A stretch of DNA of 52,523 nucleotides from assembly GCA_003213495.1 (NCBI GenBank), contig QCMW01000001.1, forward strand, positions 874,181-926,703, read 5' to 3'. This stretch comes from SAR86 cluster bacterium AG-422-O05 (GTDB taxonomy: Bacteria; Pseudomonadota; Gammaproteobacteria; Magnimaribacterales; D2472). The notes under the pieces were generated by a model. It saw only the letters and a list, made by a program, of their open reading frames with translations. It was not told the DNA's origin and made no database searches. How positions within the stretch are numbered: position 1 is the first letter of the stretch; every line of letters begins with the position of its first letter. Below are positions 1 to 3,784 of this stretch, piece by piece. The position numbers and the translations under genes are program-made.

Positions 1-1875
1 ATGACCAGAGATGCTAAATCAAATTATTTTATTAACAATACAAAATGCAGAAGAAAAGATGTTCAAGACATTTTCCTTGGTACAGGACTAAGCTCATATG
101 CAATTATTGAGCAAGGAATGGTTAGTAGACTGGTTAGCTCTAAACCTGACGAGTTAAGGGCTCATTTAGAAGAAGCAGCCGGTGTATCTAAATATAAAGA
201 AAGAAGAAAAGAAACAGAATCTAGAATTAAAAGAACAAAAGAAAATCTATCAAGAGTAAAAGATATTAAAGATGAAATAGGCAGACTGATTAAAAGATTG
301 CAGAATCAAGCAAAAGCAGCAGAAAAATATAATTTATTGAAAGATGAAAAATCAAAGCTTGAGCTAGATAAGGCAATATTATTTTCAATAGAAGCAAAAA
401 ATAATAGAGATGGCCTTCAAAAAAAATTAGACGGCCTTAAAAGAGACCTGAAAATCAAAAATGCGGAATCGGATACATATCAATCTCAAATCGATCAATA
501 TAGAACCGAAAATGAGTCAGTGTTAAAAGAATATGAAAATGCTCAAAAAAACTTTTATGCAATTGGAGCTGAAATAGCTAAAAGAGAGGCTAATCTTCAA
601 AATATTATTAAATCTCAATTAGAAATTAAAGATAATTTAGAGAAGGCTTCTGCAAATTACGAAAAAGCCAAAGCTACTGAAAAAAACTTCGATGAGTTAA
701 GTCCAAGCGAAAAGGCTATGCATATATTAGATGAGATTATAAATACAATCCAAAAACACGCTATTAAAACTGAAAATATTGATAATAAATCACTAGAATT
801 AAAAAAACTTTTAAAAGATATTTTAAATATTGCTACTGCGCAGTCCAAAACATTGATTGACGAGTATCTAAAACGTCAAAATGAACTTGAAATACAAATT
901 CAAGATGATCAAAAAAACAAGAAAGTAATTGAAGATGAAATAAAAGAATTTGTTGATCAAAGTTCGAAAGCAGAATCCATTCTGATTACTCTTAGGCAAA
1001 AGCAATCAAAGTTTAATGACGATTTAAGAGAACTTGAGAATAAAAAATCAATTTCAGATCTAGATTCTAGAGCAATATCAGAAAAAATTACAAATATCAG
1101 AATTGAACTTAATACATATGAAGTAAATTTAGAGAATTCTAATAAAAAGATTCAAGAAGCTGGGTTAGAGCTTCAAACAATTAATTTTTCTGAATACGAA
1201 GGCAATTCTACAGACGATATTGAAAATAAACTTACAGATTTAGAAGCTAAAATTATAAGACTTGGAGCTATAAATCTTGCAGCTCCAGAAGAAATAAAAG
1301 AAGAATCAAAACGAAAAGAAGAGCTTGATGAGCAGTATGCAGACCTAACAGAAGCATTAGAAAAATTAACAAGTGCAATAAAGAAAATTGATCAAGAAAC
1401 AAAAACAATCTTTAAAGATAGTTTTGATGCTGTCAATATAAAATTAAAAGAAATGTTCCCAAAATTATTTGGAGGAGGTGTGGCAGAACTTACTTTAACT
1501 GATGAAAACGAATTAAATGCCGGTGTTGTTCTTATGGCAAGACCGCCTGGTAAAAAAAATTCATCAATTTCGCAGCTTTCTGGAGGCGAGAAAGCGTTAA
1601 CGGCATTGGCTTTGGTATTTGCAATTTTCAATTTAAATCCAGCTCCATTTTGCTTATTAGATGAAGTAGATGCTCCATTGGATGACTTGAATACATTAAG
1701 ATTTGTAAATATGGTCGATGAAATGTCAGATACAGTTCAGTTTATTTTTATTACACATAACAAAGTATCAATGGAAAGAAGTGATCATTTAATGGGTGTA
1801 ACAATGCAAGAGGCTGGTGTTTCAAGAGTTGTGTCTGTAGATGTTAATCAAGCCGTTGAGATGGCACAATCTTAG
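1..1875 (+). CDS. smc: Chromosome segregation ATPase SMC, 5'-truncated by window edge; hinge domain not found
   Basis: C-terminal 624 residues of an SMC ATPase, the DNA-organising motor of bacterial condensin. The first residues (TRDAKSNYFINNTKCRR) match an internal part of the N-terminal head, so the true start lies upstream and roughly 110 residues are missing. Visible parts: the N-head with SSYAIIEQGMVSRL and EEAAGVSKYKERR (about 30-65), a coiled coil (about 70-225), a short non-coil stretch (about 226-290), a return coil (about 290-455), and the C-head with signature QLSGGEKAL near 528 and Walker B CLLDEVDAPLDD near 553. The usual hinge of about 180 residues is not visible and the arms are short; the whole protein would be about 730 residues against about 1150 for the family. 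The stop abuts the zipA start (TAGATG). Confidence 0.93.
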   Translation: MTRDAKSNYFINNTKCRRKDVQDIFLGTGLSSYAIIEQGMVSRLVSSKPDELRAHLEEAAGVSKYKERRKETESRIKRTKENLSRVKDIKDEIGRLIKRLQNQAKAAEKYNLLKDEKSKLELDKAILFSIEAKNNRDGLQKKLDGLKRDLKIKNAESDTYQSQIDQYRTENESVLKEYENAQKNFYAIGAEIAKREANLQNIIKSQLEIKDNLEKASANYEKAKATEKNFDELSPSEKAMHILDEIINTIQKHAIKTENIDNKSLELKKLLKDILNIATAQSKTLIDEYLKRQNELEIQIQDDQKNKKVIEDEIKEFVDQSSKAESILITLRQKQSKFNDDLRELENKKSISDLDSRAISEKITNIRIELNTYEVNLENSNKKIQEAGLELQTINFSEYEGNSTDDIENKLTDLEAKIIRLGAINLAAPEEIKEESKRKEELDEQYADLTEALEKLTSAIKKIDQETKTIFKDSFDAVNIKLKEMFPKLFGGGVAELTLTDENELNAGVVLMARPPGKKNSSISQLSGGEKALTALALVFAIFNLNPAPFCLLDEVDAPLDDLNTLRFVNMVDEMSDTVQFIFITHNKVSMERSDHLMGVTMQEAGVSRVVSVDVNQAVEMAQS

Positions 1876-2502
1876 ATGAATAGCAATTATGAAATTTATA
1901 TTGTTGGCTCAGCAATTTTATTTTTTTTAATTATTGTATTTTTCTATATTCGAAAAATTTCAAACTCTCAAGAACTAAAAGTTAAAATAGAATCTTTGCA
2001 GGATCCTTTGGAATCATCAAATCTTATCAATGAAGATAACTCTAATGCATCATTTGATGATGATACCCAAACAGAACAAGATCAAGAGTTAGTTATATTT
2101 AATTTAATTTCTTCGGATAAGTCATTTTTTAATATTTCACAGTTATTTGGTTTTCTATCTAACTGTGGGGCAAAGTTAAATAATGGTTTTTTTTCTTTTT
2201 ATGACGAAAAAAATAATGAAAACTTCAGGATAATAAATGCTTTAAAACCTGGAACTTTTGATAATGAAACAGAAACTTTTGCCATAGTATTAGTATCAGA
2301 CTTAGCTAAAGCGGAACATCCTTTATTGACCGTAAAATCTATGATTGATATTGCAGCAATTTTCTCTGAAAATTTTCATTCATCAATGTGTAATCAAGAC
2401 AGAACTCCAATTACAAAGCAGATGATTTCACATATAGAATCAAAAGCACAAGAAATTGAAAGAATTAGAAAATTGCCCGTAAATAGTTTGGATAAAGAAT
2501 GA
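1876..2502 (+). CDS. zipA: Cell division protein ZipA
   Basis: Membrane anchor that tethers FtsZ at the division ring. Residues 7-27 form one N-terminal transmembrane helix, residues 28-70 are an acidic linker, and from about 72 onward comes the FtsZ-binding ZipA C-terminal domain, recognised by FNLISSDKSFFNISQLFGFL, the KPGTFD motif near 133 and the closing helix with TPITKQMISHIESKAQEIER. At 208 residues it is shorter than the E. coli protein (about 330), mainly because the Pro/Gln-rich linker is reduced. It starts on the base after the smc stop and its TGA overlaps the ligase ATG (ATGA), so smc, zipA and ligase are translationally coupled. The smc-zipA order is usual in gammaproteobacteria, which supports the call. 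Confidence 0.85.
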   Translation: MNSNYEIYIVGSAILFFLIIVFFYIRKISNSQELKVKIESLQDPLESSNLINEDNSNASFDDDTQTEQDQELVIFNLISSDKSFFNISQLFGFLSNCGAKLNNGFFSFYDEKNNENFRIINALKPGTFDNETETFAIVLVSDLAKAEHPLLTVKSMIDIAAIFSENFHSSMCNQDRTPITKQMISHIESKAQEIERIRKLPVNSLDKE

Positions 2503-2921
2503 CAGATCCTTGGAAAATTATTAAACAGCTTGAGAGTGATAATAGTAGGCTCTTCAAAGAAGATGTAATCAAACAACATCTTCATGATTCAACTTTTCAA
2601 GAAGGTTTAGCGATGTGTTTAGATGCACTTGTAACTTTTGGTGTAAAGCAAGTGCCAGAATCCAATCAAAATGGCAAAGGTCTTGATTGGAAAACTTTTA
2701 AAGAAGGAGCAAATCTATTAATTGAAAGAGAAAGAACTGGACATGCTGCAAGAGATTTAATACTAGATTTAATGCATGCTGCAAAAATGAATCAATGGAA
2801 TGATTGGTATAGAAGAATATTGATAAAAGACTTACGGTGCGGAGTCAGTGAAAAGACGGTTAACAATGTTGCAAAAAAAATGAACCTTGATTATAGCGTT
2901 CCCGTTTTTCATGCATGTTAG
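2499..2921 (+). CDS. ATP-dependent DNA ligase, N-terminal part (DNA-binding domain); separated from catalytic part by a -1 frame change
   Basis: This 140-residue protein matches the N-terminal helical DNA-binding region of T4-type ATP-dependent ligases. The closing stretch WYRRILIKDLRCGVSEKTVN is the part just before the nucleotidyltransferase domain in that family. It ends at TAG 2919-2921, while the next frame opens with ATG at 2915 and continues the homology with MLAHDGAKHP. One extra base near 2915 would fuse both parts into a normal ligase of about 428 residues. Either a base is missing (mutation or sequence error), or the two parts are made separately by coupled translation (ATGTTAG overlap). 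The position after zipA is where the NAD-dependent ligA normally sits in gammaproteobacteria. Confidence 0.75.
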   Translation: MTDPWKIIKQLESDNSRLFKEDVIKQHLHDSTFQEGLAMCLDALVTFGVKQVPESNQNGKGLDWKTFKEGANLLIERERTGHAARDLILDLMHAAKMNQWNDWYRRILIKDLRCGVSEKTVNNVAKKMNLDYSVPVFHAC

Positions 2922-3784
2922 CTCATGATGGAGCAAAGCATCCAAAAAAAATTAAGGGCAATTGTCTTGTTGAATACAAATATGATGGCGTAAGAGTAAT
3001 AGCTATTGTCAAAAAAAACAAAGCAACTCTTTATAGCAGAAATGGTAAAGTGTTTAATAATTTTCCTCATATTGAAGATGCCTTAAGTAAATCGGAGTTT
3101 AATAATCTCGTACTGGATGGTGAAATTATGAGTGATGATTTTCAGGCACTCATGAAACAAGTTTATAGAAAATCAGGTGCAGAGACCGATGATGCCTATC
3201 TTGCATTATTTGATTTACTACCACTTGATGAATTTAATAATGGAAAAAGTAAATTAAATACACTAGAAAGAAAAAAACAGTTAGACAAGTTATCTGAATC
3301 TTTTCAAAGCTGCATCAAGTTGGTTGATTATGTCATTTTAAATTTTGACGATGAAAGTGGGAATGACACATTTACAAAAATGAATAAAGAGGCTTTAGAT
3401 AAAGGGTATGAAGGTTTGATGATTAAACCAAGTGAAAATTATTATGAAAGCAAGAGAAGTCACGCATGGTTAAAAATTAAACCATTCATAGAGGTGACAT
3501 TAAAAATTATTAGTATTCAAGAGGGTACTGGAAAACATGAAGGAAAATTAGGAGCTTTTCAGGTTGAAGGAACTGATGATGGCAAATTTTTTTCATTAAG
3601 CGTAGGAAGCGGTTTAACTGATGAAGATAGAGATAAATTTTGGGAATCAAGAGATAAATTAATTGGAATGCTGGTCGAGATAAGAGCAGATGCTATTACT
3701 CAAAGCATAGAAGGGGAACACTACAGTTTAAGATTTCCACGTTTTAAAAGTTTTAGAGGCTTTAAAAAAGATGAAAAAATATAA
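2915..3784 (+). CDS. ATP-dependent DNA ligase, catalytic part (nucleotidyltransferase and OB fold)
   Basis: This part carries the complete catalytic core of an ATP-dependent DNA ligase, which seals nicks by lysine adenylation. Motif I is EYKYDGVRV (Lys about residue 23), motif III is VLDGEIM (about 70), motif IV is EGLMIKP (about 168) and motif V is AWLKIKP (about 186). An OB-fold region follows to residue 289, ending in LRFPRFKSFRGFKKDE. There are no zinc-finger, HhH or BRCT regions as in LigA. The ATG at 2915 lies inside the end of the upstream part, and no independent Shine-Dalgarno is obvious. The 3' end overlaps the next lipoprotein start by 14 bases. The core is intact, so the pair could still be functional as two chains; the family assignment is firm, the split is not explained. 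Confidence 0.85.
   Translation: MLAHDGAKHPKKIKGNCLVEYKYDGVRVIAIVKKNKATLYSRNGKVFNNFPHIEDALSKSEFNNLVLDGEIMSDDFQALMKQVYRKSGAETDDAYLALFDLLPLDEFNNGKSKLNTLERKKQLDKLSESFQSCIKLVDYVILNFDDESGNDTFTKMNKEALDKGYEGLMIKPSENYYESKRSHAWLKIKPFIEVTLKIISIQEGTGKHEGKLGAFQVEGTDDGKFFSLSVGSGLTDEDRDKFWESRDKLIGMLVEIRADAITQSIEGEHYSLRFPRFKSFRGFKKDEKI

Follow-up and report, generated by a model that had tools for sequence, protein, structure and literature searches.

An SMC protein without a hinge domain in the gammaproteobacterial lineage SAR86

The sequence, a tree of the heads, and the relatives show that the smc gene of SAR86 cluster bacterium AG-422-O05 is the orthologous smc of SAR86 and that its product has lost the hinge along with a large part of the arms. 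The gene probably encodes the ATPase of an SMC-ScpAB condensin. The protein is an SMC ortholog that lacks the defining hinge domain, not a canonical hinge SMC. SAR86 is abundant in surface oceans. The gene lies at the start of the window (the whole stretch of 52,523 nucleotides that we analyzed, C1:874181-926703 of genome G000, which has 1.28 Mb on 2 contigs and is 96.67% complete). The first 106 codons are upstream of the window (C1:873863-874180), and the complete open reading frame (C1:873863-876052) encodes 730 amino acids.

The ATPase motifs are intact, with Walker A at residue 31, LSGGE at 632, and Walker B (LLDEVDAPLD) at 658, and they form the split ABC head (Walker A, signature, and Walker B) of a prokaryotic SMC. 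The protein scored 797.9 bits against TIGR02168 (SMC_prok_B, cut-off 567.35), as compared to 383.3 bits for SMC_prok_A, 79.7 bits for the archaeal SMC-related ASRP, and 56.5 bits for the best Rad50 model. MukB was absent among the best 25 of the 30 NCBIfam families that matched. The further PF02463 matches in this genome are frames of 364, 930, 593, 531, 235, 231, and 231 amino acids, which we take, judging by size, for putative RecF, UvrA, and ABC ATPases.

We placed the parts of the protein with an AlphaFold2 model of a relative, L096 (732 amino acids, 30-row alignment, monomer; 78% identical to the window SMC in the arm region), and with the mean pairwise identity among 16 representatives. 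The features of the window are:

1..1875, plus strand: smc, codons 107-730 and the stop codon; frame open; full ORF of 730 amino acids
187..393, plus strand: N-terminal head-proximal arm helix, residues 169-237 (helix 170-239 of L096; identity 0.71)
406..696, plus strand: N-terminal distal arm helix, residues 242-338 (helix 244-340 of L096; identity 0.43)
697..876, plus strand: helical tip at the place of the hinge, residues 339-398, with helix 1, a loop, and the start of helix 2 (L096 model, identity, and hydrophobicity)
877..1155, plus strand: C-terminal distal arm helix, residues 399-491 (L096 model and identity)
1156..1287, plus strand: joint-like region, residues 492-535, with a conserved GAINLAAPEE at its end (helix break 494-512 of L096)
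1288..1467, plus strand: C-terminal head-proximal arm, residues 536-595 (L096 model and identity)
1468..1872, plus strand: C-terminal ATPase head, with LSGGE from 1576 and Walker B from 1654 (Pfam, NCBIfam, and motifs)

The L096 model (pLDDT 77.3, pTM 0.48) has SMC heads and a helical hairpin, with no strand between residues 123 and 601. Its helices are at residues 170-239, 244-340, 343-360, 366-494, 504-507, 512-529, and 536-598. The model thus predicts the antiparallel coiled-coil arms with a joint that characterize prokaryotic SMC proteins. Within the joint-like region, identity is 0.87 for the segment 524-535, but only 0.31 for 492-512 (16 representatives). When the model was compared to known structures, Foldseek's top match was 5xei (the Pyrococcus Smc head with coil and joint), and VIA-align placed 5xns first and ranked SMC, cohesin, and condensin heads above Rad50 chains. 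In a sequence search of the PDB, bacterial SMC heads came first, and we noticed no isolated hinge chain among the 55 matches.

Profile searches agree that there is no hinge. Pfam identified SMC_N in the window SMC and no SMC_hinge at E ≤ 1. None of the 60 genomes searched from the order, G000 among them, gave a match to the hinge model PF06470 (55 of them have an smc match and 5 do not), so we reject the idea that the hinge is encoded as a separate protein. Nor did it match any of nine individual SMC proteins, which covered short, middle, and long forms as well as two other small-genome families (f40 and f139, see below). The sensitivity of PF06470 is incomplete: it missed a Caulobacter control and likewise some genomes with strong full-length SMC matches, such as G174, G175, and G181. 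Because it misses Caulobacter, we added a closer control, 12 proteins picked from 38 complete full-length gammaproteobacterial SMCs, and PF06470 matched all 12 at E ≤ 1 (2.5e-9 for the first member). Given this result and the L096 model, it is unlikely that the profile overlooked a hinge. Length, the L096 model, and the close positive control jointly confirm that the hinge is absent. We also found no CxxC zinc-hook motif, either in the window SMC or in 67 further SMCs checked from the order.

In a sample of the class, PF06470 matched in 113 of 149 genomes. The 36 genomes without a match are not 36 losses of the hinge, because some carry a strong full-length SMC and others have none, and the model misses some hinges. 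Among the 20 that were listed are G000, genomes of families f4 and f40, the three with full-length SMC mentioned above, and G179 and G184, which have no SMC match. Another genome of the same class, G171, has a hinge match in a frame of 1003 amino acids, so a hinge can be present in a shorter SMC.

Short SMCs are what we found in the SAR86 relatives sampled. Among the best 80 of 550 confirmed loci in a genome scan, there were 39 short SMCs, 38 complete SMCs of 1164-1186 amino acids, and 3 that were cut or incomplete. The short ones comprise 22 of 727-734 amino acids, 9 of 809-826, and 8 of 995; 30 are labelled as SAR86 and 9 only as Gammaproteobacteria or Proteobacteria. None of the 38 complete long proteins among these 80 loci is labelled as SAR86. 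The SMC on the closed chromosome CP097973.1 (L117) has 728 amino acids. We also read the gene at 69 loci from the order, a set that overlaps with the 39 scan loci (one locus, L073, gave no gene). All 68 genes encode proteins of 727-736, 809-827, or 995-996 amino acids. By family, f1 has 38 of 727-734 and 10 of 995-996, f2 has 8 of 821-827, f3 has 7 of 809-810, and f4 has 5 of 732-736. In a survey of 151 genomes of the order, SMC_prok_B matched in 148, and none of the SMC matches listed had an open frame above 1010 amino acids.

An earlier note on this DNA had described a protein of about 730 residues that appears to lack the hinge and has short arms. The length is exactly 730, and the Pfam and PF06470 negatives, the length, and the L096 model support the rest of that description. 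The note had also named places where contrary evidence might turn up, and all were empty: the predicted structure of this close relative hides no hinge, the window SMC was matched only once in its own genome by profile search (and the genome has no hinge match), and no SMC of about 1150 amino acids was found in relatives from the order, as all 68 genes read there are shorter.

At the place of the hinge, the L096 model has a tip made of a helix (343-360), a loop (361-365), and the start of a long helix (366-494), at a pLDDT of 58-77 (only 58-76 for the blocks at 341-380). The short middle stretch of the earlier note starts here, at residue L339 (window position 697). Among the 16 representatives, the mean pairwise identity is 0.51 and 0.52 for the tip helices and 0.25 for the loop, as compared to 0.43 and 0.41 for the distal arms and 0.86 and 0.81 for the heads. 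Taken as a whole, the 60-residue tip reaches 0.471, no higher than the 75th percentile of arm windows. In all 11 short f1 proteins that we examined, no other stretch of 42 residues in the arm region was as hydrophobic as the tip. Among six long proteins, the hydrophobic maximum was off the tip in five; it was also off the tip in one of two proteins from f4 and one of two from f139, and off-centre in f3 and f40. In 19 of 30 proteins, it was at most 40 residues from the middle. As a general signature of the tip, hydrophobicity fails outside of the short f1 and f2 forms.

We think it probable that this is a working SMC-ScpAB condensin in which the helical tip, together with contacts of the arms and of the heads, replaces dimerization by the hinge. 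The arm is predicted to close on itself via a two-helix tip of about 50-60 residues. Two SMC subunits would most likely be held together by packing of the tip helices against each other and by arm contacts, and ScpA and ScpB would bridge the ATP-engaged heads. The complex would still work as a condensin, with a smaller compartment. As the earlier note suggested, it is plausible that the protein dimerizes by another surface, perhaps the middle stretch; the models that we used are of monomers.

In the main alternative, the function of the hinge would simply be gone. The arms would end freely, and the subunits would pair only via ATP-engaged heads, bridging by ScpA, and weak arm contacts, as an open clamp without a closed ring. 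In the short f1 proteins, conservation and hydrophobicity are higher in the tip helices than in the neighboring arm, and the long forms that we read retain one central tip, which argues against this open arrangement. It would fit with the lack of a hook motif in the window SMC and with a tip that as a whole is only moderately conserved and whose sequence differs between families f1-f4. Also, contacts between arms probably contribute to the dimerization of hinge-less Smc, according to the relevant part of PMC5526789. On balance, we consider free arm ends unlikely, and we prefer dimerization via the tip.

The earlier note had suggested looking for scpA and scpB, and we found both the kleisin ScpA and ScpB encoded in the genome, as expected for a prokaryotic SMC. 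ScpA has 266 amino acids and scores over the cut-off of PF02616. Just downstream, scpB is a PF04079 match (positions 2-160 of 160) in a frame of 188 amino acids. We did not see an ATG-started ORF of at least 100 amino acids at the place of scpB, which therefore begins at some other codon or at an ATG further into the frame. Of 60 genomes searched from the order, 51 gave a match for scpA and 51 for scpB; the remaining nine are the same for both genes, and eight of them have 20-50 contigs. In G041 and G053, ScpA was matched only in part. In G044 (family f4), which is a single contig, 93% complete, and has smc, neither scpA nor scpB was detected; this is possibly a further reduced complex. The gene order of smc, a gene that we read as zipA-like, and a DNA ligase is the same as in hinge-bearing relatives (the ligase was identified by Pfam scan for the window, L096, and L119 only). 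The earlier note had also considered that the protein may act differently from canonical condensin; as far as can be judged from sequence, the presence of scpA and scpB argues for a condensin role of the window SMC.

These partners and the gene order speak against the idea that this is a repair-type ATPase like Rad50 or RecN that has no condensin role. Heads on a hairpin without a hinge do resemble RecN and Rad50/SbcC in outline, but the window SMC has no CxxC hook, its SMC_prok_B score is far above its score for Rad50, and Rad50 chains rank below SMC chains in the structural comparison, so we view a repair role as very improbable. An in-frame deletion or misassembly that shortened a normal smc can be ruled out, even though the same assembly has two frame breaks within 5 kb (in the ligase and M16 protease genes), by the relatives with the same short SMC: the architecture is present in all 68 genes from the order and at the 39 scan loci, whose sources include MAGs, isolates with single-cell-style names, and a closed chromosome.

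SMCs of 995-996 amino acids were observed at L076-L085 and at L118-L125. In all 10 of those at L076-L085, the N-terminal arm repeats at an offset of 120 and the C-terminal arm at an offset of 143 (z = 6.5-9.6 versus other offsets; z ≤ 3.3 in 7 shorter proteins). The sum, 120 + 143 = 263, equals 995 - 732. In a model of a 995-residue form (L119), the joint-like break appears twice and the tip once; we used only the helix pattern of this model, as its heads are poor (long stretches with pLDDT below 50, pTM 0.27). The long forms that we read keep a single tip in the middle. These comparisons of sequences show that arm length is evolvable: in some lineages, a second hairpin is nested in the first, and the hinge was not regained. 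The second joint of the long forms is predicted from the model. By rough estimates from residue positions, the mean arm length is about 190 residues in the 730-residue form, 225-230 in f2 and f3, and 320 in the 995-residue form.

In the head tree, the long forms are at three places (genera g12, g15, and g16), which requires 3 changes, and placing them in one clade is rejected (p-AU = 9.5e-47). The inner units of the long forms are one clade (100/98), and the outer units group with each host's relatives. Grouping the inner and outer units of g12 as one clade is rejected (p-AU = 2.5e-6), as is placing the inner units of g12 and g16 with their own side (p-AU = 0.003), so g12 and g16 did not duplicate their arms independently. 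The AU test did not reject one duplication at the base of f1 with exact losses afterwards (p-AU = 0.177), and lateral transfer of the inner module is thus not demonstrated. Most likely, the inner hairpin arose once and then either spread laterally or was exactly lost several times.

Two other families of the same class, f40 and f139, also have small genomes (1.0-1.1 Mb, 94-99% complete). Their frames are of 940 and 947 amino acids (f40) and 930, 947, and 950 amino acids (f139), and PF06470 had no match in the four proteins scanned, two from each family. At the f139 loci L179, L181, and L182 and the f40 loci L187 and L189, the SMC has 927-947 amino acids (the hinge scan covered L179, L182, L187, and L189). 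For hinge loss shared between these families and SAR86, the head tree gives a value of 56/93, which does not decide either way. A broader reading, which we offer tentatively as somewhat short of an even chance, is that SAR86 and, independently or ancestrally, these two gammaproteobacterial families have a hinge-free condensin whose arm is a modular telescope. A nested hairpin module (N-arm segment, tip, C-arm segment, and second joint) would have been passed between lineages or repeatedly removed exactly. If this is true, then the length of the arms and the closure of the ring are free to evolve, with the heads and ScpAB remaining in place.

The SAR86 protein shares with the SMC-ScpAB condensin (TIGR02168) its head sequence, ATPase motifs, predicted antiparallel arms with a joint, ScpA and ScpB genes, and gene neighborhood. 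It differs in having a helical tip and no hinge, and in its length of 730 amino acids, versus 1164-1186 for the 38 complete non-SAR86 proteins among the best 80 of 550 loci. Hinge-less SMC as a kind is already known: the sections of Sussfeld et al. 2025 (PMC12153180) that bear on this describe it from ORF catalogues of marine Actinobacteria, as one clade near the actinobacterial base. The definition of that cluster (SMC heads, no hinge, and no CXXC) describes the window SMC as well, and both are marine and have hairpin arms. As that cluster is described there, SAR86 is set apart by belonging to Gammaproteobacteria, by its genome context and ScpAB, and by the arm duplication. SAR86 does not occur in the main text of that paper, nor ScpA in its listing. 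The gammaproteobacterial tree neighbors and labels speak against membership in the actinobacterial cluster (the tree had no actinobacterial rows). In the open-access literature, we found no report of a gammaproteobacterial hinge-less SMC with ScpAB and arm duplication. SAR86 thus extends hinge-less SMC to a second phylum and adds genome context.

A common view is that SMC dimerization, DNA loading, and loop extrusion depend on the hinge (as summarized in PMC12153180). According to the portions of PMC5344682 on engineered Smc, B. subtilis grows normally if the Rad50 zinc hook takes the place of the hinge, and Smc with shortened arms is functional at particular lengths; arm length matters in steps. 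The same source gives modes of natural prokaryotic arm length of 238, 341, and 515 residues, and perhaps 163 and 423. As described there, the engineered Mini-Smc and zinc-hook Smc resemble the SAR86 protein in having short arms or a dimerization domain other than the hinge, but they are engineered and keep a known dimerization domain. SAR86 kept the ATPase heads and, mostly, ScpAB, and lost the hinge, which suggests that nature runs this machine without a hinge. The SAR86 SMC is a natural test of the hinge's purpose. With forms of about 730, 810-827, and 995 residues, it offers a ready series in which to find out what arm length and what contact at the end are required.

We also note that two genes near smc are each split over two frames in the window: the ligase gene, around position 2906, and another around 4672, which we take to be an M16-type protease. 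In L096, each is in one frame. These could be small assembly indels or real breaks, and smc is not affected.

The ligase, two genes after smc (window 2499-3784, plus strand; L096:7362-8645), is an ATP-dependent DNA ligase according to Pfam in both the window and L096. PF01653, for the NAD-dependent DNA ligase, had no match in G000 and matched in 11 of 14 controls. To our knowledge, bacteria have very rarely lost LigA, and we found no paper in the open-access literature on an ATP-dependent DNA ligase in SAR86. Of 75 genomes searched from the order, 22 have no PF01653 match; these include all 9 that were searched from the genus of G000, as well as G063 and G034, each of which is a single contig. 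A 428-residue ORF is in the same slot in L098, L104, and L117. In L119, the slot holds an NAD-dependent LigA (L119:8167-10323), and L126 and L140 have ORFs of the size of LigA.
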